Of a DNA stretch of 64,000 nt, positions 22,986-35,125 are shown one piece after another (positions within the stretch are counted from its first letter, which is position 1; each line of letters opens with the position of its first letter). Position numbers and translations under genes: made by a program. This DNA is from Sphingobacteriales bacterium 44-61. Its GTDB lineage: Bacteria > Bacteroidota > Bacteroidia > Chitinophagales > Chitinophagaceae. The notes beneath the pieces are model-generated. The model saw only the letters and a list, made by a program, of their open reading frames with translations, was not told the origin of the DNA and did not search any database. Where the stretch lies: NCBI GenBank assembly GCA_001898405.1, contig MKTW01000012.1, positions 248,001-312,000 on the forward strand, read 5' to 3'.

Positions 22986-24230
22986 TTATTGGGAATATTT
23001 CTTGAAAATTGTTGTTGCAATATGCCCTCCGAAACCAAAAGTATTGTTCATGGCATGATTTATTTGTTTTTCCACAGCCCGGTCAAGGGTCAGGTCAAAC
23101 AAGCCGTCAAATTCAGGTTCCACTTTTTGCACATTGATGGTTGGCGGAATTTTATTTTCCTGCACGGATTTTACTGCAGCAATCGATTCTATAGCGCCGG
23201 CGGCACCCAGCAAATGACCTGTCATTGATTTGGTGGCGCTGATATGAAAGCCTTTTCCTGTTCCGAAAACACGCCTGGCGGCTATAAGTTCGCTGTTGTC
23301 TCCGGCATGGGTGGAAGTGGCGTGTGCATTCAGGTAGTCGATGTCCGAAGGCTGCAACCCCGCATCGTCCAAAGCAGCCAGCATGCCGAGATAAGCACCC
23401 TCGCCTTCAGGATGGGTGCCGGTTAAATGATAAGCATCGGCAGCCATGCCTCCGCCAACCACTTCAGCCAGGATAGGGGCATTGCGTTGTAAAGCGTGCT
23501 CCAGGCTTTCCAGTATCAGGGCACCCGCGCCTTCGCCCATTACAAAACCATCGCGGTCTACATCAAATGGACGGGAGGCAGTAGCAGGCGAATCATTGCG
23601 GGTCGACAATGCTTTGGCTGCATTAAAGCCACCGACAGCACTTTCTGTGATCGGCGCTTCAGACCCGCCGGTGATGATCATGTCAGCTTTGTTCCAGCGG
23701 ATATAATTCATGGCATCGATGATGGCTGTATTGGAAGTGGCGCAGGCAGACATGGTAGTGAAATTGATACCGCGTAAACCGTATTTTATGGAAATAACGC
23801 CCGAAGCAATATCAGCGATCATTTTCGGGATAAAAAAAGGATTGAACCTGGGGGTGCCATCGCCCTGTGCATATTCCATTACCTGCTGCTGAAAGGTATT
23901 GATGCCGCCATTGCCCGAACCCCAGATCACACCGATACGGTTGCGGTTTAGTTTTTCAAAATCAATATTCGCGTCCTTACGGGCTTCTTCTACAGCAATA
24001 AGGGCATATTGAGTAAACAGGTCATATCTCCGGGCCTCCGCTTTTTCGATGAAATTGAGCGGATCGAAATCCTTTAACTCACAGGCAAATTTTGTTTTGA
24101 ATTTACCGGTATCAAATTTAGTGATAGGAGCAGCTCCGCTTACGCCTTTCAATAAAGATGCCCAGAAATCTTTGCTGTTGTTGCCGACAGGAGTTAAAGC
24201 GCCTGTGCCGGTAATGACGACTCTTTTCAT
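22986..24230 (-). CDS. fabF: Beta-ketoacyl-ACP synthase II (FabF)
   Basis: FabF extends acyl-ACP by condensation with malonyl-ACP. The 414-residue protein has the catalytic triad in the usual places: Cys163 in TMSACATS, His303 in NAHATSTHAGD and His339 in KSMTGHLLGAAG. Residues at the end (NNTFGFGGHIATTIFKK) form the family's C-terminal signature. There is no acpP or fab cluster beside it. Instead it is divergent from a TetR regulator across a 158-base gap that holds that regulator's likely operator. It may therefore be part of a dedicated lipid or acyl-product regulon rather than the main fatty-acid operon. Confidence 0.93.
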   Translation of the reverse strand: MKRVVITGTGALTPVGNNSKDFWASLLKGVSGAAPITKFDTGKFKTKFACELKDFDPLNFIEKAEARRYDLFTQYALIAVEEARKDANIDFEKLNRNRIGVIWGSGNGGINTFQQQVMEYAQGDGTPRFNPFFIPKMIADIASGVISIKYGLRGINFTTMSACATSNTAIIDAMNYIRWNKADMIITGGSEAPITESAVGGFNAAKALSTRNDSPATASRPFDVDRDGFVMGEGAGALILESLEHALQRNAPILAEVVGGGMAADAYHLTGTHPEGEGAYLGMLAALDDAGLQPSDIDYLNAHATSTHAGDNSELIAARRVFGTGKGFHISATKSMTGHLLGAAGAIESIAAVKSVQENKIPPTINVQKVEPEFDGLFDLTLDRAVEKQINHAMNNTFGFGGHIATTIFKKYSQ

Positions 24231-24352
24231 GCGTTAATTTTATAGTTTACTTATAACAATGATCCGGATCAATAGTTTTACTGGCTGCCATCCGGGAGAT
24301 TGGAAATGCTTCAGTGAATTAAGGAATATGGTGTAAAAATAAATTAAATTTT

Positions 24353-24366
24353 ATACCAATTGGTAT
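24353..24366. promoter_or_regulatory. Palindromic operator O1 (fabF/TetR intergenic)
   Basis: ATACCAATTGGTAT is a perfect 14-bp palindrome. It lies between divergent fabF and the TetR gene, seven bases upstream of the TetR gene's TATTTTCG promoter element. A matching palindrome is found at 25005-25028. Confidence 0.8.
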
Positions 24367-24372
24367 TTTATC

Positions 24373-24380
24373 TATTTTCG
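24373..24380 (+). promoter_or_regulatory. Near-consensus -7 element for the TetR gene
   Basis: TATTTTCG (consensus TAnnTTTG, one mismatch) lies eight bases before the ATG at 24389 and next to operator O1. A bound repressor would cover the promoter. Confidence 0.4.
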
Positions 24381-24388
24381 GTCCCATA

Positions 24389-24991
24389 ATGCCGGTACCA
24401 GTATCAAAAGCGGAAAGGACCAAGCAATTCATCATTGAAAAAACTGCTCCCATTTTCAATGAAAAGGGTTATGCGGGTACTTCTCTTAACGACCTTACTA
24501 AAGCTACCGGGTTGACCAAAGGAAGTATCTATGGCAATTTCGAAAATAAGGATGATGTTGCTTTAGCAGTCTTTGATTATAATTACAACAGGGTTGTCGA
24601 ATATATAAAAGCAAAATCGCAGGCGACCGAAAACTCTATTGAGCGGTTATTGGTTTACCCCGACGTATACCGCAATTATTTAAAAACCCCTTTCTTACAA
24701 CCGGGCTGCCCGATTTTAAATACAGCAACGGAAGCAGATGACACTCACCCCCTGTTAAAAGAGAAAGCGGCTAATGCTCTTGCTTTTTGGAAAAAAGCAG
24801 TTGAAAATCAAATTAAGCGCGGTATTGCACGGGGGGAAATAAAAGCAGATGCCAATCCAACAGAAATAGCAGTCATCCTTATATCATTGATCGAAGGAGC
24901 ATTTATGCAGGCCAAGGTCACCGGCAGAACAGTGGAATTGAAAATAGCAATGGACTACCTGGAGAAGATGATACTGAGTCTGAAAAAGTGA
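24389..24991 (+). CDS. TetR/AcrR-family transcriptional repressor
   Basis: This 200-residue regulator has an N-terminal TetR helix-turn-helix (about 10-55, FNEKGYAGTSLNDLTKATGLTKGSIYGNF in parts). Its C-terminal ligand domain resembles the YxaF/LmrA-type group (PGCPILNTATEADD). The ligand is unknown. Two matching palindromes, one just upstream and one between this gene and the thioesterase, are its probable operators. That implies autoregulation and control of the thioesterase, and perhaps of fabF. The neighbouring acyl enzymes suggest a fatty-acyl or related ligand. Confidence 0.9.
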   Translation: MPVPVSKAERTKQFIIEKTAPIFNEKGYAGTSLNDLTKATGLTKGSIYGNFENKDDVALAVFDYNYNRVVEYIKAKSQATENSIERLLVYPDVYRNYLKTPFLQPGCPILNTATEADDTHPLLKEKAANALAFWKKAVENQIKRGIARGEIKADANPTEIAVILISLIEGAFMQAKVTGRTVELKIAMDYLEKMILSLKK

Positions 24992-25004
24992 TTTTTTTTG
25001 ATCT

Positions 25005-25028
25005 AAAATATACCAATTGGTATATTTT
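25005..25028. promoter_or_regulatory. Palindromic operator O2 upstream of the thioesterase
   Basis: A perfect 24-bp palindrome is centred between 25016 and 25017, with core TATACCAATTGGTATA flanked by AAAA and TTTT. The inner 14 bases are identical to operator O1. It lies 14 bases before the thioesterase ATG. Confidence 0.85.
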
Positions 25029-25042
25029 ATAAACTAACGTAT

Positions 25043-25567
25043 ATGGAACAATATAAAAAAATGCTGGAGAGTAAAATGAAGGTCCGTTTTCATGATTGTG
25101 ATCCGTTTAATCACCTGAACAATTCAAGATATATTGATTATATCATAACTGCCCGGGAGGACCAGCTACTGGATAATTATGCGCTTGATATATACAAGCT
25201 GGCGAAAGAAAAGGGGATCGGCTGGGTGGCTGCTCAAACACAGATCTCCTATATGGCACCGGCATATCTTATGGAAGAAGTAATTGTTCAAACGCAATTG
25301 ATAGCCTGTTCTGAAAAAAGCCTGCTGCTGGAAGCTTTTATGTGGAATGCCGATAAAACAATCTTAAAAGCAGTGATGTGGGCAAAACTGGTCCATTTCA
25401 ATCTTGTAACGCAAAAAAGCCACCGCCACTCTGAAGAACTAATGCAATTCTTTAAGCAAATAGTGAGTCCGCTTTCCCTGGAAATGAATTTTGAAGAAAG
25501 ACTGAAAAGTTTAAAACAATCTGAACTAAGTATGAACCCGTCAGCAAACCCGGTTGCCGGAAAATGA
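25043..25567 (+). CDS. Acyl-CoA thioesterase, 4HBT hotdog family
   Basis: This 174-residue hotdog-fold protein contains MKVRFHDCDPFNHLNNSRYIDYI, the N-terminal catalytic stretch of the 4-hydroxybenzoyl-CoA/FadM thioesterase group, with the Asp-Pro-Phe-Asn-His-Leu-Asn core. The segment QTQISYMAPAYLMEEVIVQTQ gives the central strands. Members hydrolyse acyl-CoA or acyl-ACP thioesters. A polar tail of about 35 residues follows. It has its own copy of the TetR operator, so it is the clearest target of the repressor encoded upstream. Confidence 0.87.
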   Translation: MEQYKKMLESKMKVRFHDCDPFNHLNNSRYIDYIITAREDQLLDNYALDIYKLAKEKGIGWVAAQTQISYMAPAYLMEEVIVQTQLIACSEKSLLLEAFMWNADKTILKAVMWAKLVHFNLVTQKSHRHSEELMQFFKQIVSPLSLEMNFEERLKSLKQSELSMNPSANPVAGK

Positions 25568-28112: not shown

Positions 28113-30263
28113 TCAGTTCATAAACAACTCATCCAAAAATACCCATCCTTTATCACCTTTTCCGGGATGCCATGCGGGCAGTTTGCCCACTGGCTTTACT
28201 ATTAGTTTTATAGCCTGCACTTTCCTGGTGGCAAAGCTGCATTCATAACTAGCGATGTAAGGAGTTTCGCTCCTGGCAGGTTGTTGGGGAGTCAGTTTTT
28301 TTAGAAGGTGAAGAGAAGTGCTGTTGTCGCCGCCCCAAACCTGTATCTCGGAAGGAGGCATTATATAGGCGTTGATGTCAATAAGCGATCGGATTGTAAT
28401 ATTGCTTATCTCAACCGGTTGCCTGAAAAACAGGTTGGCTTCCAGAGGCGTTTCTCTATATGCAGCCCAATTGCTTCCTGATGAAAAATCCAAAAGGCCG
28501 AGTTCTCCATCAATAAGCACAGTATTATTTTTAACCGCGAATTTCTTATCAGGAGGTGTCATCTGAATGCTATCGGGCATTACACTGCTTTTATAAAAAT
28601 ATTCAGCGGCAGTGCTGCTGCTGATCCAGCCAGGGAGAAAAGACCTGGCTTTTATAATTCCTGTTTTATTGATGGTAAAAGGTTCTTTATATATTGGTGA
28701 AGCGATGCTGTCTGGTTCGCTGCCGTCAATCGTGTACCGGATCACGGCGCTTTTAACAGGGCTTTTGATTGTGACAGGGATTTCTGTTTTGAAAGTCTTC
28801 TTTTCTGCTTCAATAACCGGCATGGTCAGTTTGGCTAAAACGGTATCTCCTTTAAATCCGCTGTCAAAAATTGTTTTAGGGAAATCTGTTTTAAGTGATG
28901 TGATATCCTGTTGGCTGATGGACGTATTCCATACCTGGATGGATTGCAAATTCTTTAATTGTGCCAATGATTTGAGGTTATTGCTGCTAACCGCTGTTCC
29001 TGAAAGTGAAAGATGTTTCAGGTGTTGCAGGCCGGTTAAATAGTTGACCCCTTCTCCCTTGATAGCGGTAAATGATAGGTTGAGTGCTCTCAGATTGCTG
29101 AAGCTTCCGATTGTTTTGAGGTCGTCATCAGTAACAGGCATTTTGCTTAGCTGTAATGATACGATGCTGTTTTTGATCTGTTCCAGCTCTTTTAATTGAT
29201 CACTTGTAAACCTGGATGCTCCGTAAAAATTTACAGAAATGGCTGGTGATCCGGTAGCAAGAGGAGTTACTACCCGGTAATCATTGTTTAGCCTGGCTAT
29301 GATATTCTTATCTGCAGCCGGAAAGTCATAAACATCAGCATCACTGCTTTTAAAGCGGGCTGTTGCTATCATCCGCAACGAGTCATTTTCTGGTAGTTCC
29401 AGTACTTTTTTAGTGAATCCGGCTCCGCCTTTTATCCATAAATAAAGAATGTTTATTTCTTCGTCTGTAAGCTGTGTCTTGCTTTTGGGAGGCATATGTT
29501 CCTTGTCTTCAAGCGGAAGATGTATGCGTCGCATCATCAGTCCAAAGTCTGCGGCAGCGGTATCCCAGGGTTTACCGTTTTTGCCTCCTTTCAATAATAG
29601 CTGTTCTGTTTCCATGATCAGTTCGCCCTTGGCTTTACTTTTATTATGGCAACCCATACATTTTTGTTCAATGACAGGCTTTACCAGGTGTGTGTATACT
29701 ACAGCGTCTTCTAAAAGCACGGTAGGCTCCTTACTGTCCCCATTGATAGGGGCGAGCAGGAAATCATTCCCATGTGTGAGGCTGGCACCTTTGTGGCCAG
29801 CTATAAATAAAAGAACGGATGTGCCAAGTCCTGTACTGATCATCGCAGCTTTGTTTTTTCGTATCAGGTCTTTGAACCCATACCAGAGAAAGCTTACAAA
29901 AGAACAGATAACTCCCAGCCATTTATGAGTGTTCACTTCACTGCTATCGTATCCCGGTTCCCTGGACAAGAAAAGTCCTGCTAAGGCAGCGATTACTGTA
30001 GTTAGTGAGGCTGCAAGCAATACCCAATTGGCAATGCCCTTTAGTGCAGCCGGCTGCTTTGAATACATGATGGCCAGTTCAAGCACAAATGCCAGCAGCA
30101 ACAGTACAATCGGGAAATGTAATACCATCGGGTGCACCCTGCCAAAAACCTGTAAAAAGGGCGGCACCTGGATGCGGCTGCTGAAAAGCAATAAGAATAC
30201 CAGCAAGCAATTGAATAATATGCATAGATTATATAGGGCTGCCTGCCATTTAAGATGTTTCAT
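28113..30263 (-). CDS. Multidomain membrane protein: DUF2231, planctomycete-type cytochrome c, LRR-like and chitobiase C-terminal-like domains
   Basis: This 716-residue protein is the last gene of a four-gene minus-strand operon. Four membrane helices (about 10-30, 45-68, 80-100 and 117-157) form a DUF2231-like part with VHPMVLHFPIVLLLL. A planctomycete-type cytochrome c region follows, with CMGCH at about 202-206 and MPPKSKTQLTDEE as the distal Met region. Residues about 370-455 form leucine-rich repeats (LRALNLSFTAIKGEGV). IRYTIDGSEPDS (about 515) is the chitobiase/hexosaminidase C-terminal-like sandwich. The last 120 residues look like a carbohydrate-binding jelly roll. Its start is ATG 30263; a TTG two codons earlier is in frame. 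Confidence 0.8.
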   Translation of the reverse strand: MKHLKWQAALYNLCILFNCLLVFLLLFSSRIQVPPFLQVFGRVHPMVLHFPIVLLLLAFVLELAIMYSKQPAALKGIANWVLLAASLTTVIAALAGLFLSREPGYDSSEVNTHKWLGVICSFVSFLWYGFKDLIRKNKAAMISTGLGTSVLLFIAGHKGASLTHGNDFLLAPINGDSKEPTVLLEDAVVYTHLVKPVIEQKCMGCHNKSKAKGELIMETEQLLLKGGKNGKPWDTAAADFGLMMRRIHLPLEDKEHMPPKSKTQLTDEEINILYLWIKGGAGFTKKVLELPENDSLRMIATARFKSSDADVYDFPAADKNIIARLNNDYRVVTPLATGSPAISVNFYGASRFTSDQLKELEQIKNSIVSLQLSKMPVTDDDLKTIGSFSNLRALNLSFTAIKGEGVNYLTGLQHLKHLSLSGTAVSSNNLKSLAQLKNLQSIQVWNTSISQQDITSLKTDFPKTIFDSGFKGDTVLAKLTMPVIEAEKKTFKTEIPVTIKSPVKSAVIRYTIDGSEPDSIASPIYKEPFTINKTGIIKARSFLPGWISSSTAAEYFYKSSVMPDSIQMTPPDKKFAVKNNTVLIDGELGLLDFSSGSNWAAYRETPLEANLFFRQPVEISNITIRSLIDINAYIMPPSEIQVWGGDNSTSLHLLKKLTPQQPARSETPYIASYECSFATRKVQAIKLIVKPVGKLPAWHPGKGDKGWVFLDELFMN

Positions 30264-30280
30264 CACCAACAGAAAACGTT

Positions 30281-31306
30281 TTAGGCTATAGGTTCTAATT
30301 TGTAGGGATAAACTTTACCGGAGTTCCATTGTGCCACATAGAGATTCTCTTCATCATCTACGCAAACATCGTGTGGGTAATCGAAGGCTTTGATGGTTTG
30401 ATACATCTCCTGTAGTTTGCCATCAACATAAGTTGGAGCGCAACCGGCAGGATTTGATACTACCTCGTTGTTTTGGTTCAGGATAGTTATAAAGCCTGAT
30501 TTTTGCCATAGATTGTTGTTGCTTTGTAATACAGCAGCATAGAGGTACAGGCCATGGATAACAGGCCGGCAAACCCAGGCCCCCGGCATTTGAACAGTGT
30601 CAATATAAACTCCATCCATGGTATATCTTTTAAAAGCATTTTGCTGTCTCGACGTTACTATAAGCACCGGTTTGCCATTCCTGTTATCAATGCAAACGCC
30701 ATGTGCATTAAGCAGATGCTTGTCCTGGCCGCCTCTTCCGCCAAAGTGCCGGATATAATTGCCTTTATAATCATATTGTATTACAAAATCTTTACCGTAG
30801 CCGTCTACTACGTAGATATCACCATTGGGTGCGATAGCAGTTTCAGTGGGGATGTACTCTTCTGGTTTTGCATATTCCCCTGTTTCTTTGGGATAGTTCA
30901 AGACTAGCAATACCCTGCCGTCAATGGTGGTTTTTATTACCTGGTGGCGGTTGTTATCACATATAAAGAGGATATCTGTTCCGTTCTCGTTGAACAAGGT
31001 GAAACCGTGTGCGCCGGGATATTCGCTGCCCCAGGAGTTCAAGAATTTACCATTCTTGTCGTATATAATTACATTGTTTTTGGTTTCGTTGGTAAGCAAT
31101 AAGATCCGCCCTTTGCTATCCTGTACCATTTCATGGCAATCATTTACGGGGTTCTTAGACACATCGGCCTGGCTCCAGCGGGTGTTTATCTTGTACCGTT
31201 TTTTGCCATGCCCCAGTATCACTTCGTTTTCGGCAAGCCATAAAGGGATATAGCTTGCCCCGATAAAACCCAGTGCTGTGTTGCGGATAAATTTTTTTCT
31301 GTTCAT
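30281..31306 (-). CDS. NHL/6-bladed beta-propeller protein with Tat-like leader
   Basis: The 341-residue protein starts with NRKKFIRNTALGFIGASYIPLW, a leader with a weak twin-arginine pattern (RKKF), so export is likely. The rest is made of NHL-type propeller blades, for example NGDIYVVDGYGKDFVIQYDYKG, NAHGVCIDNRNGKPVLIV and PHDVCVDDEENLYVAQW (partial quotes). Such propellers often bind peptides, sugars or lipids. It lies between the DUF1501 gene (28 bases upstream) and the DUF2231 cytochrome gene (17 bases downstream). It probably acts in the same extracytoplasmic pathway, but the substrate is unknown. Confidence 0.78.
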   Translation of the reverse strand: MNRKKFIRNTALGFIGASYIPLWLAENEVILGHGKKRYKINTRWSQADVSKNPVNDCHEMVQDSKGRILLLTNETKNNVIIYDKNGKFLNSWGSEYPGAHGFTLFNENGTDILFICDNNRHQVIKTTIDGRVLLVLNYPKETGEYAKPEEYIPTETAIAPNGDIYVVDGYGKDFVIQYDYKGNYIRHFGGRGGQDKHLLNAHGVCIDNRNGKPVLIVTSRQQNAFKRYTMDGVYIDTVQMPGAWVCRPVIHGLYLYAAVLQSNNNLWQKSGFITILNQNNEVVSNPAGCAPTYVDGKLQEMYQTIKAFDYPHDVCVDDEENLYVAQWNSGKVYPYKLEPIA

Positions 31307-31334
31307 GCTGTTTTGGTTGTGTTGCTGATCGGTT

Positions 31335-32783
31335 TTAAGCTATCAGGTCTGTTACTACTTTTCCTGCTACATCGGTGAGCCGGTAGCGGCGTCCGAGATG
31401 CTTATACACGAGTCTTTCATGATCGAGCCCCATTAAGTGAAGGGCAGTGGCCTGAAAATCGTGTACATGCACAGGGTTGGATATAATGTTATAACCAAAT
31501 TCATCTGTTTCTCCATACACGCCCGGTTTTATGCCTCCCCCGGCCATCCAGATGGTAAAGCAGCGGGGATGATGGTCCCGGCCATAATTGTCTTTTGTAA
31601 GCGTTCCCTGGCAATAATTGGTCCTCCCGAATTCTCCACCCCAAATTACCAGTGTCTCGTCCAAAAGCCCTCTTTGTTTAAGGTCAGTAACCAGTGCTGC
31701 AGAAGCCTGGTCTGTATCGAGACATTGACCAGCCAGTTCCTTAGGCAGGTTATTATGCCCGTCCCATCCCTGGTGATAGATCTGTACAAACCGCACACCG
31801 TTTTCGGATAGCTTCCTTGCCAAAAGGCAGTTGGCTGCATAGGTGCCGGGAACAAGACAATCTGCACCATAAAGTTTGACAATGGATTCCGGCTCCTTGC
31901 TGAGATCGGTTACTTCGGGCACGGCCGTTTGCATCCTGTAAGCCATTTCGTATTGCTGCACTTTGGCTTTGATTTCGGGATCGCCTGCTTCGTCATAAAC
32001 TTCATTGTTCAAAGCAGCCAGTTGGTCGAGCATTTTTCTTCTTTCCGCTTTGTCCATTCCTTCAGGATTGTTCAGATATAATACAGGGTTTTCTCCGTTG
32101 CTGAACTGTACGCCCTGGTGCACAGAGTCGAGAAATCCATTGGTCCATAGTTTTGAGTATACGCCCTGCCCATTGCCTTTACCTTTTGAAAGAAGAACAC
32201 AAAAAGCCGGCAGGTTTTTGTTTTCGCTGCCAAGTCCGTAACTAAGCCATGCTCCCATACTTGGACGGTTTCCTATCTGGGCGCCTGTTTGAAAAAAAGT
32301 TAAAGCGGGGTCGTGGTTAATGGCTTCTGTGTAGAGGCTTTTTACAATACACAGATCATTTACGATCCTTGAGGTGTGAGGCAACAACTCACTTATCCAT
32401 GCTTTATGTTCACCATACTGATCAAACTTGAAAAAAGTGCCTGCCAATGGGAATTTGGATTGATCGGCTGTCATTCCTGTGAGGCGTTGTCCTTGCCGGA
32501 CGGATGCAGGCAAGTCCTGCCCGAACATTTCATGAAGCTTTGGTTTATAGTCAAACAGATCTAACTGCGACGGAGCTCCGTTTTGAAAAAGGTAGATAAT
32601 GCGTTTAGCTTTTGGGGCAAAATGAGGGAGGCCTGTGGCAATAGCTTCTTCAGCATTTTTGCTGCCGAACAGATCCGGGACCAGCAGGCTGCCCAGAGCC
32701 GCTCCGCCTATACCCATTCCCAAACTGGTCAGGAACCGGCGACGGTTGATGTTAAGGCCATGTTCCAGTATTTCTTTTTCCAT
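31335..32783 (-). CDS. DUF1501 family protein (alkaline-phosphatase/sulfatase-like fold), Tat-exported
   Basis: This 482-residue protein has a clear twin-arginine leader (INRRRFLTSLGMGIGGAALGSLL, residues about 13-36). The DUF1501 body includes GAPSQLDLFDYKP, VKSLYTEAINHDPALTFFQTG, QIYHQGWDGHNNLP, IWGGEFGRTNYCQG and GRDHHPRCFTIWMAGGGIKPG. The Asp, His and Glu residues in these motifs are arranged as in the sulfatase/phosphatase superfamily. DUF1501 and DUF1553 genes are typical neighbours in Planctomycetes, and this gene follows a DUF1549/DUF1553 gene by 29 bases. Its enzymatic activity is unproven. Confidence 0.9.
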   Translation of the reverse strand: MEKEILEHGLNINRRRFLTSLGMGIGGAALGSLLVPDLFGSKNAEEAIATGLPHFAPKAKRIIYLFQNGAPSQLDLFDYKPKLHEMFGQDLPASVRQGQRLTGMTADQSKFPLAGTFFKFDQYGEHKAWISELLPHTSRIVNDLCIVKSLYTEAINHDPALTFFQTGAQIGNRPSMGAWLSYGLGSENKNLPAFCVLLSKGKGNGQGVYSKLWTNGFLDSVHQGVQFSNGENPVLYLNNPEGMDKAERRKMLDQLAALNNEVYDEAGDPEIKAKVQQYEMAYRMQTAVPEVTDLSKEPESIVKLYGADCLVPGTYAANCLLARKLSENGVRFVQIYHQGWDGHNNLPKELAGQCLDTDQASAALVTDLKQRGLLDETLVIWGGEFGRTNYCQGTLTKDNYGRDHHPRCFTIWMAGGGIKPGVYGETDEFGYNIISNPVHVHDFQATALHLMGLDHERLVYKHLGRRYRLTDVAGKVVTDLIA

Positions 32784-32812
32784 GGTTATTTATAAATTTC
32801 CGGAAGAATGAA

Positions 32813-35125
32813 CTAGACCCTTACAATAGCTTCTTCCATGTTATAAATCAGGTTTATTACCCTCATTAAAGCAGCGACCTCTGTGATGTTTGATGAATTA
32901 TGGTTATACGGATATTCTCCTGCGCGAATAGTTTTCTCTGCCAGTTCTTTCTTGTTGTTAAATAATGTCAATTGATCTTTGTAATAGTTGCTCAGAAGGT
33001 CCATTTCTTTTTTGACCGGCTTTCTGCAAATGATACTTTCAAATGCAGTAAGAATTGTGTTTTCAGGATTTATATTTTTTTTGACCAGGGTTTCAGCAAA
33101 TACTCTTGATGCTTCCAGCACAGTGGGATCGTTCATCATTACAAGTGCCTGCAATGGCGTATTGGTTTTTTGCCTGCTTACCAGGCATTCGTCCCTGTTG
33201 CTCGCATCAAAAATGATCATGGAAGGAGGGGGGACTGTCAGTTTTATAAATGTGTACATACCGCGCCGGTAAAGATCTTCTCCTTTATCCTGCCGGTAAG
33301 TGGCTAATTGCCCTCTGCCGGAAGTGGCGGCCTCCCAAAGTCCCCTGGGTTGATATGGTTTTACGCTCGGCCCGCCTATTTTACGGTTAAGCAATCCGCT
33401 GCTGCTCAGTACCATGTCCCTGATGCCTTCTGCAGACATTCTAAGTCTTGAAGCCCTGGCGTAATAAAGGTTTTCAGGATCTTTTTCAAGCTGCTCTTTG
33501 GTAATGCCGGACGATTGGCGATAGGTAGCAGACATCAGCATTTTTTTGATCAGCTTTTTTATGTCCCATCCCTGTTCCATAAAATCAACTGCCAGCCAAT
33601 CGAGCAACTCCGGATGAGTGGGAAGGCTGCCTTGCATCCCAAAATCACCAACGGACCTTACAATCCCTTTTCCAAAAAACTGTTCCCACATTTGATTCAC
33701 CAATACACGGGCCGTTAGCGGATTTTTTTTATTTACGGTCCATGTTGCAAGTCCCAACCTGCTTTGAGGAAGAGCTGTAGTGTCAAAGTTCATAACTGAA
33801 GCCAATGCAGCGGCGGTCACCACTTCTCCATGCTGATCATACACTCCGCGATTCAAAATATAGGTAGCACGTGCTGTGTCCAATTCTCCCATTACTGATA
33901 CTGTTACAGCCGCCGTATCTTTGGCGTGAATAAAATTCAACAGGTCCCTGGTATCGTTTTGCGTCAGTTTCAATACAGGTGTTTTTGCAGGCCCTGATCC
34001 TACAAGGCCTTCCAGTCCTTTCTCCTTACTGGTATTGAAAAAAGCAAAGAGCCTGTAATAATCTTTTTGCGAAATGGGATCATACTTATGGTCATGGCAT
34101 TGTGCGCATTCAGCGGTAAGCGCAAGTATGCTTCTTGAATAGGTTTTTACTTTATCAATAGCATATTCAACACGGTATTCTTCCGGGATCACGCCACCTT
34201 CTTCTGTTATTTTGTGGTTGCGTAAAAAAGCGGTAGCCAGGACTTGTTCTTTACCTGCATCAGGCAGCATATCGCCGGCCAGCTGCCAGGTCAGGAACTT
34301 ATCGTAAGGCATATTCGTATTAAATGCATGGATCACCCAATCGCGGTAAGGCCATTGTGATCTGTAATCATCATCCTGGTAGCCGTAACTGTCAGCATAC
34401 CTTGAAATATCCAGCCAATGGATGGCCATCTTTTCTCCAAATTGGGGAGTGGCTAAAAGCTTATCGAGCGTTTTTTCATAAGCAGCTTCGCTTTTGTCTG
34501 CGATAAATTCATTCTGCAATTGAAGATCAGGAGGGAGCCCTGTTAAATCGAATGCCAGTCTTTTCAGGAGCGTTTCCTTACCGGCTTCTTCGTTATGTTT
34601 AAGGTGGAGCGACTGCAGTTTTGAAGCAACAAAATAATCTATTTCATTCCTGGCCCATTTCTCTTCTTTTATTTCAGGCAGCGGGGTTTTGGAAGGTGAT
34701 ATAAAGGCCCAGTGTTTTTCATACCTGGCACCTTGTTTTATCCATTTGGTCAGCAAGGCTATTTCATCTTTGTTAAGAACACCGAGATGGGATGCCGGCG
34801 ATGGCATCAGGTAAGACGGGTCTGTGGAAGTGATCCGTTTGATGAGCTCGGATTTTTCCGGGCTTCCGGGAACAATGGCATAAGCCCCTTTGGTTTCCCT
34901 TAAGGGAGCTTTGGCATTCGTTTCGATATCCAATCTTAAGCCGGCTTCCCGTTTGTTCTTATCAGGACCATGGCAAATAAAGCATTTGTCGGAAAGTATA
35001 GGGCGGATATCGTAATTGTAACTTATCTCATTCCTGCCAGGCACCGGGCTTTTAGCTGGCCATGACAGCCATGCTGCAGCAACAGCAATGCATAGTATGA
35101 TAATCGCCGTTATTTTCCATTTCAT
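32813..35125 (-). CDS. PSD1 / DUF1549 / DUF1553 protein with planctomycete-type cytochrome c domain
   Basis: This 770-residue exported protein is the first gene of the minus-strand operon. A membrane anchor or signal peptide (about 5-22) is followed by the planctomycete cytochrome c domain with CFICHG (about 48-53) and GLRLD. The DUF1549 domain (about 155-350) contains FVASKLQSLHLK, LTGLPPDLQ, HWLDISRYADSYGYQDD and ECAQCHDHKYDPISQKDYY, in which CAQCHDHK is a second heme-binding CxxCH. The DUF1553 domain (about 440-760) contains LARVLVNQMWEQFFGKGIV-like text, FGMQGSLPTHPELLDWLA and DASNRDECLVSRQKTNTPLQAL. Family members are thought to be redox or degradation proteins, but none is well characterised. 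Confidence 0.9.
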   Translation of the reverse strand: MKWKITAIIILCIAVAAAWLSWPAKSPVPGRNEISYNYDIRPILSDKCFICHGPDKNKREAGLRLDIETNAKAPLRETKGAYAIVPGSPEKSELIKRITSTDPSYLMPSPASHLGVLNKDEIALLTKWIKQGARYEKHWAFISPSKTPLPEIKEEKWARNEIDYFVASKLQSLHLKHNEEAGKETLLKRLAFDLTGLPPDLQLQNEFIADKSEAAYEKTLDKLLATPQFGEKMAIHWLDISRYADSYGYQDDDYRSQWPYRDWVIHAFNTNMPYDKFLTWQLAGDMLPDAGKEQVLATAFLRNHKITEEGGVIPEEYRVEYAIDKVKTYSRSILALTAECAQCHDHKYDPISQKDYYRLFAFFNTSKEKGLEGLVGSGPAKTPVLKLTQNDTRDLLNFIHAKDTAAVTVSVMGELDTARATYILNRGVYDQHGEVVTAAALASVMNFDTTALPQSRLGLATWTVNKKNPLTARVLVNQMWEQFFGKGIVRSVGDFGMQGSLPTHPELLDWLAVDFMEQGWDIKKLIKKMLMSATYRQSSGITKEQLEKDPENLYYARASRLRMSAEGIRDMVLSSSGLLNRKIGGPSVKPYQPRGLWEAATSGRGQLATYRQDKGEDLYRRGMYTFIKLTVPPPSMIIFDASNRDECLVSRQKTNTPLQALVMMNDPTVLEASRVFAETLVKKNINPENTILTAFESIICRKPVKKEMDLLSNYYKDQLTLFNNKKELAEKTIRAGEYPYNHNSSNITEVAALMRVINLIYNMEEAIVRV

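Follow-up and report, generated by a model that had tools for sequence, protein, structure and literature searches.

A regulator gene of the TetR family lies between an accessory fabF gene and a gene for an acyl thioesterase, with a palindrome on either side of it. In the window, by which we mean the whole 64-kb stretch of DNA that was analysed, the order is lpdA (–), fabF (–), operator 1, tetR (+), operator 2, the thioesterase gene (+), and a gene for an outer-membrane barrel (+). Coordinates are given in Table 1. The genome that we searched comprises 5.58 Mb in 20 contigs.

Table 1. Genes, putative operators, and promoter boxes at the tetR locus (window coordinates).
Feature	Position	Strand	Description and basis
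tetR (P0001, 200 aa)	24389..24991	+	TetR_N and TetR_C_13; Pfam, AlphaFold2 model, conservation in homologues
Thioesterase gene (P0002, 174 aa)	25043..25567	+	4HBT_2 hotdog superfamily acyl thioesterase; predicted target of operator 2
Accessory fabF (P0003, 414 aa)	22986..24230	-	3-oxoacyl-ACP synthase II; TIGR03150; probable target of operator 1
Operator 1, ATACCAATTGGTAT	24353..24366	.	14-bp perfect palindrome; 22 bp upstream of the tetR ATG and 122 bp upstream of that of the divergent fabF
Operator 2, TAAAATATACCAATTGGTATATTTTA	25004..25029	.	26-bp perfect palindrome between tetR and the thioesterase gene; centre 25 bp past the tetR stop
-33-like box, TTTG	24997..25000	+	Thioesterase promoter; conserved T-run ending TTTG/A, -20 to -17 from the operator centre
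-7-like box, TATATTTT	25021..25028	+	Overlaps the right arm of operator 2; cf. flavobacterial -7 consensus

The assignment of the regulator to the TetR family, proposed earlier from the sequence alone, was borne out by its domains and by fold matches. P0001 scored 43.7 bits against TetR_N (cut-off 24) and 95.8 bits against TetR_C_13 (cut-off 27), the domain content of a TetR/AcrR regulator, and matched TetR_C_13_2, the LmrA/YxaF-like C-terminal domain, more weakly than TetR_C_13 (43.6 bits, cut-off 27). The AlphaFold2 model (pLDDT 90.2) has nine helices, with the recognition helix at residues 44-50, and the top matches in a fold search with this model were TetR structures. The genome holds no close TetR paralogue; the sole other match was 30% identical over 64 residues.

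The neighbouring genes were assigned to enzyme families of acyl metabolism. The thioesterase matched Pfam 4HBT_2 with 65.8 bits (cut-off 25.5; 6.3e-18), and its closest PDB sequence was YbaW (1njk). It scored below the TIGR00051 cut-off for the YbgC/FadM subfamily (48.5 versus 68.7 bits) and was filed as a member of the 4HBT_2 superfamily only. FabF passed TIGR03150 (537.9 bits, cut-off 493.75), and its residues 2-413 aligned with 4ls5; the regions of one Cys and two His residues, which we take to be catalytic, were kept. Two fabF genes in the genome are above the cut-off, and the window copy is 58% identical to the other. We also considered lpdA, which follows fabF on the same strand, as a member of the regulon. 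Lipoamide-dehydrogenase-like genes are cargo of the regulator in other genomes, yet the window lpdA is the genome's sole match above the TIGR01350 cut-off and shares just 40% identity with a cargo gene of this kind (L077), and we took it to be a housekeeping neighbour. Farther along the window (28113-35125), this Bacteroidota genome carries a set of genes with PSCyt1/PSCyt2/PSD1, DUF1501, and DUF2231-Fn3 domains that the Pfam names mark as planctomycete-type.

The two palindromes share one 14-bp sequence that is otherwise missing from the genome. The 14-bp perfect palindrome that the sequence-only reading had described between fabF and tetR is present there, and its sequence recurs at 25010-25023 as the core of operator 2. 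The same reading had described the second palindrome as 24 bp long; positions 25005-25028 and the 14-base gap to the thioesterase ATG fit that version, but the actual palindrome is 26 bp. There was no further exact copy in the 5.58 Mb (reversed control, 0), and the occurrence at many unrelated sites that had been named as telling against a regulatory role was not found. Six palindromes of at least 14 bp were present in the 64 kb (4.2 expected), which makes a lone 14-bp palindrome unremarkable; the chance expectation for one of 26 bp was 0.001. With up to three mismatches to the 14-mer, the window contained just two places, both exact, compared to 4.4 expected by chance.

Weaker matches elsewhere in this genome did not reveal further targets. 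There were 26 places with up to two mismatches to the 14-mer (14 for the control) and 25 places matching TACCRNNYGGTA (38 for the control). We examined 28 near-matches, made up of 13 of the 24 non-window places for the 14-mer and 15 of the 23 for TACCRNNYGGTA. Twenty-five lay inside called open frames and the other three (L005, L015, and L096) were poor, asymmetric matches, and we rejected them all as regulon members beyond the locus.

Operators accompany homologous tetR genes in several families of the Bacteroidota. We analysed the best 80 of 457 TetR homologues among named records, and dropped L032, whose flanks and matches were the same as those of L031, from the conservation counts, the tree, and the cargo counts, leaving 79 loci. 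An operator was defined as an ACC-N4-GGT palindrome with at least five of seven pairs matching, located 10-70 bp before tetR or no more than 60 bp past its stop. Within these best 80 of 457, the upstream operator was present in 55 of 79 Bacteroidota loci (first-order Markov expectation 0.16 loci) and not recognisable in the other 24, and the downstream operator was present in 69 of 78 (expectation 0.125 loci), one locus with too little flank having been left out. Both operators were found in 46 loci and neither in one, and the centre of the downstream operator fell 24-26 bp past the tetR stop in 64 of the 69. This arrangement exceeds chance by a wide margin. The locus that lacks both operators in recognisable form is L024; L219 has the same TetR.

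Operator 2 lies within the predicted promoter of the thioesterase gene. Across loci, the downstream operator is flanked on one side by a T-run ending in TTTG/A and on the other by a TATATTTT-like box; the window reads TTTG-N20-TATATTTT, with operator 2 in between. The -33 box of such promoters is TTTG or TTG. A -7 consensus of TAnnTTTG, which the window sequence fits, is given for a flavobacterium in PMC9723704. As read from the sequence, the placement of operator 2 is the layout of a promoter-blocking repressor. Because the operator sits between the -33 and -7 boxes, autorepression and repression of the thioesterase gene are well supported, and we consider both very likely. Each had been predicted by the sequence-only reading, and each is strengthened by conservation among Bacteroidota homologues: of the operator in the regulator's own promoter region in the one case, and of operator 2, which overlaps the thioesterase promoter, in the other. 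A palindromic operator in its own and in a target promoter, as judged from sequence alone, also places the regulator with TetR/AcrR repressors.

The recognition helix varies together with the operator. Among the downstream operators (best 80 of 457), 41 loci had the T-type (TACC), 27 had the G-type (GACC), and one (L060) had A at that position. Residue 46 was Ser in all 38 aligned proteins with T-type operators and Cys in all 24 aligned proteins with G-type operators. L027, L028, L057, L067, L081, L082, L087, and L095, with translated frames of fewer than 150 residues, were left out of the tree and the residue counts, and hence 38 of the 41 and 24 of the 27 proteins were aligned. Outside this count there were exceptions, with Cys46 beside a TACC operator in L187 and Ala46 beside TACC operators in L177, L178, L179, L181, and L080; in L060 and L023, Cys46 goes with A at that operator position. 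Since the G-type proteins belong mostly to one clade, the covariation may reflect a single change.

The operator pattern was enriched in genomes that encode such a regulator. The pattern ATACCRWWYGGTAT had 92 sites in 30 genomes of the family with a regulator (20 for the reversed control), compared to 25 sites in 30 genomes of the family without one (28 for the control). The first set left out G099 and G022, in which the operators beside the regulators are of the AGACC type, and genomes with matches weaker than that of G084 (4.4e-48). The second was picked by hand from genomes with no match to P0001 stronger than 2.7e-11. Among the matches listed, with places in G084, G001, and G101 and the third of G026 left out, 26 exact matches had no regulator close by (L285-L310, in 15 other genomes of the family with a regulator). 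All 26 were intragenic and we attribute them to chance. The second match in L311 also lies inside a called frame, near the frame end. Because these sites without a regulator close by are all intragenic, the regulon looks local and seems to take in the regulator, the operon that follows it, and, depending on the genome, fabF or an efflux gene. Among the loci of related regulators, L182, L188, L231, L233, and L236 carry an extra operator immediately ahead of a 510-520 aa gene. These genes belong to one cluster, whose examined member (L182) is an EmrB-type DHA2 efflux gene, and they adjoin an SDR gene and, in some loci, a thiolase gene.

The genes behind operator 2 differ widely among relatives. 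Of the 69 loci with this operator (best 80 of 457 homologues), 18 had a 4HBT_2 thioesterase as the first gene after it, the commonest class, followed by lipoamide-dehydrogenase-like (15), DinB_2 (8), mixed GNAT/DinB (6), other (5), thiolase (4), GNAT (4), a family without assignment (4), ketopantoate reductase (2), none (2), and glyoxalase-like (1), each cluster being named after one representative had been searched against Pfam or NCBIfam. A 4HBT_2 thioesterase was present anywhere in the same-strand run in 32 of the 69 (best 80 of 457). The sequence-only reading had suggested a small acyl-release pathway or a lipid-stress response. Because the same regulator and operators serve such varied cargo, we rejected a dedicated acyl-release pathway as the general role; the label is too narrow and is not supported, and within the thioesterase clade the combination of a thioesterase and fabF beside one regulator is otherwise found just in L050 (fetched flanks). 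The frequency of detoxification-type cargo also speaks against a purely lipid role. In L045, L058, L061, L062, L066, L077, and others, from Sphingobacteriaceae, Weeksellaceae, and a Chitinophaga, a lipoamide-dehydrogenase-like gene leads the same-strand run behind the regulator and is followed by various GNAT, glyoxalase-like, methyltransferase, DinB_2, and 4HBT genes. By their gene content, these runs look like collected detoxification cargo.

From the genes, the operators, their conservation, and the promoter overlap seen in the sequence, we infer binding, repression, and a signal as follows. The TetR would be a local autoregulating repressor that binds ATACCAATTGGTAT as a dimer in its own promoter and in that of the thioesterase gene. 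Repressor at operator 2 would fill the space from -33 to -7 and keep RNA polymerase out. A signal, perhaps an electrophile or oxidant acting through Cys107, would inactivate the repressor, and the regulator and the thioesterase would then be made together, with the divergent accessory fabF probably released too. The thioesterase, with or without FabF, would be the form that an exchangeable cargo for repair or detoxification takes in this genome. We regard this explanation, taken as a whole, as likely, and its parts differ in strength.

Control of fabF by the TetR is a moderately probable part of this explanation. Our sample of accessory fabF genes comprised every non-own match that reached 600 bits in 147 genomes of the family (n = 27). 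A T-type operator was located no more than 2.5 kb upstream of seven of the 27, of which one is from the same genus and three have no regulator within 3.5 kb. The case for fabF as a genuine target is strongest in these three: the operator is directly before fabF in L195 and L194 (imperfect in L194, with five of seven pairs), two operators precede a 4HBT-fabF pair in L207, and the regulators of these genomes are located elsewhere (L228, L227, and L230). A TetR_C_13-like gene was within 3.5 kb of 12 of the 27; an operator, such a gene, or both accompanied 15, and 12 had neither. There were ten further or overlapping cases of a 57-66% identical fabF near a TetR gene (L180 and L182-L190), but L177-L190 were chosen for a TetR near fabF and hence are no evidence of frequency, and L190 is itself one of the 27. 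Seven genomes (L192, L196, L197, L200, L205, L206, and L210) carry a shorter TetR gene (about 185 aa) immediately ahead of the accessory fabF, without a TACC operator; the one examined, in L197, matches TetR_C_13.

The main alternative is that fabF is a bystander, with operator 1 serving tetR alone and a fabF promoter closer to the fabF start. We give this somewhat less than an even chance. It would account for the distance from operator 1 to the window fabF and for the poor promoter there (TTG-N15-TATTTTTA), with no good pair of boxes, for the absence of the operator from 20 of the 27 accessory fabF genes, and for the membership of the window TetR in a clade in which L050 is the one other sampled member with an adjacent fabF in the fetched flanks. 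The distance, the poor promoter, and the missing operators also weaken the possible control of fabF mentioned in the sequence-only reading, which is strengthened by the operators before accessory fabF genes elsewhere in the family. A bystander fabF is also at odds with the regulator-free operators of L195, L194, and L207, with the order TetR-thioesterase-fabF on one strand in L050, and with the same-genus locus L177, in which fabF is downstream of an SDR gene behind the same operator type.

The comparison with that same-genus locus suggests that one TetR replaced another beside fabF. At the place equivalent to window 24231-25030, G084, the sole other genome of the genus in the search, has lpdA-fabF-SDR-operator-TetR-operator (L177, 8517-9192). 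Its lpdA and fabF are 94% and 87% identical to those of the window, and an 808-aa gene after its second operator matches the window barrel gene. The TetR of G084 is just 43% identical to that of the window and falls in another, well supported part of the tree. The window TetR is within a clade of 80 rows (support 100/99) in which thioesterase neighbours are common and, among the fetched flanks, fabF neighbours occur in the window and L050 only. This placement suggests that a thioesterase-type TetR took over at the fabF locus, and, most simply, a TetR-thioesterase cassette would have taken the place of an SDR-TetR pair with the operator type unchanged, a direction and mechanism that we infer. 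In addition, bacterial families are mixed in the tree: Runella forms a supported group with Pollutibacter, and Aequorivita falls, less firmly, among Sphingobacteriaceae. This mixing suggests horizontal spread.

A conserved cysteine is a candidate sensor. Cys107 was present in all 102 homologues compared and was the only cysteine in 49 of them. Lys176 was present in 93; the nine that lack it are all outside the thioesterase clade. With a profile of 34 family members, NemR (4yze, 1.5e-16) was the highest functionally studied repressor, and the profile alignment placed Cys107 and Lys176 opposite chain positions 108 and 177 of 4yze. We take these to be Cys106 and Lys175 of NemR, because the 4yze chain (201 residues) is two residues longer than native NemR (199 residues). 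With this offset in numbering, Cys107 aligns with the oxidant-sensing cysteine of NemR. According to PMC8748444, Cys106 is needed for the hypochlorite response of a NemR-based biosensor, and a sulfenamide with Lys175 was not seen in that biosensor work. Identity to NemR of about 20% and the absence of a NemR model from the NCBIfam matches count against a cysteine sensor, and the conserved cysteine could be structural instead. We tentatively favor release of the repressor by an electrophile or oxidant through this cysteine, while rating it below even odds.

An acyl-CoA or a fatty acid might be the signal instead, as with FadR or PsrA, and the thioesterase and fabF would then form a lipid feedback loop. 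This is still viable because Bacillus subtilis FadR with stearoyl-CoA was also among the fold matches (rank 9), and the targets include thioesterases of several 4HBT kinds, fabF, thiolases, and SDRs. However, NemR was above FadR in the fold search, and many of the first genes are not connected to acyl groups (the lipoamide-dehydrogenase-like, DinB_2, mixed GNAT/DinB, and GNAT classes above). A GCPxxN...E.DD signature that includes Cys107 is conserved in the 102 homologues, and it is, to our knowledge, no known acyl-CoA motif, which we count against such a sensor. Overall, we consider this signal rather unlikely.

Less probable still, the regulator might sense plant phenolics or drugs in the manner of LmrA/YxaF, and fabF might be a spare copy able to withstand an inhibitor of fatty-acid synthesis. 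The TetR_C_13_2 match, the extra operators before the efflux-cluster genes, and the status of the window fabF as a second copy are consistent with it, but the part of the window from fabF to the barrel gene contains no efflux gene, and resistance of FabF to an inhibitor is a supposition. Finally, chance palindromes, or palindromes with another role (a terminator, or a site for another regulator), are extremely improbable: single 14-bp palindromes are common here, but the position beside this regulator is conserved in dozens of genomes, the exact copies in the genome number two, and in 60 family loci, chosen around such regulators and fabF genes, the density was 544 per Mb in intergenic DNA versus 4 per Mb in genes.

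Returning to the local repressor with its two operators, we believe that, for a TetR subfamily found widely in Bacteroidota, it supplies a defined operator, the architecture of a promoter, and a short list of targets. If the cysteine is the sensor, then thiol sensing of the NemR type would extend to a large phylum and be tied to acyl-chain enzymes; if a cassette was exchanged, the locus would be a natural example of a swap between regulators with a common operator. More speculatively, and with low confidence, the TetR may be a phylum-wide mobile switch: a cysteine-based repressor with a ready repressed promoter behind its stop (operator centre 24-26 bp past it) into which varied repair and detoxification genes are plugged. 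Here, it would have displaced a regulator with the same operator type and taken over the accessory FabF, so that stress from electrophiles or drugs would induce an enzyme of fatty-acid elongation.

The subfamily was undescribed, among the matches listed, in open-licence full texts searched by operator string and by topic, and the nearest systems are those found by structure and sequence. E. coli NemR (nemRA-gloA) is likewise an autoregulating TetR-type repressor, its sensor cysteine and lysine align with those here, and 4yze was the highest functionally studied structure in the fold search (rank 6). Operators of a related clade, AGACC-N4-GGTCT or GGTTT, resemble the NemR box. In contrast, the operator here starts with TACC rather than GACC, and where NemR controls a reductase and a glyoxalase, the predicted targets here are a thioesterase and probably fabF. 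With identity of about 20% and no NemR model among 15 NCBIfam matches, the regulator does not qualify as a NemR orthologue and was not filed as NemR, although it may work like NemR.

The TetR structures closest by both sequence and fold are 3eup (Cytophaga hutchinsonii) and 3qbm (Chloroflexus aurantiacus), which have the GCP...NT..E.DDT signature in common with the regulator. LmrA/YxaF of B. subtilis is related through the C-terminal domain TetR_C_13_2, and the yxaF structure (1sgm) was among the weak PDB matches, as was 3vpr, which we take to be PfmR of Thermus thermophilus. LmrA/YxaF and PfmR sense flavonoids or fatty acyl compounds. PA3973 of Pseudomonas aeruginosa, set beside the TetR here by description only, binds SAAGRNMTGAACG at more than 300 sites. 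AltR of Pantoea ananatis, as described in PMC13178969, is related to NemR, represses its own promoter through an inverted repeat, and needs the conserved Cys100 for release; it differs in its operator sequence and in its thiosulfinate-tolerance gene cluster, and the comparison is by description. Next to these systems, the local TetR autorepressor with its matched pair of operators is a cleanly defined new case of a known type.
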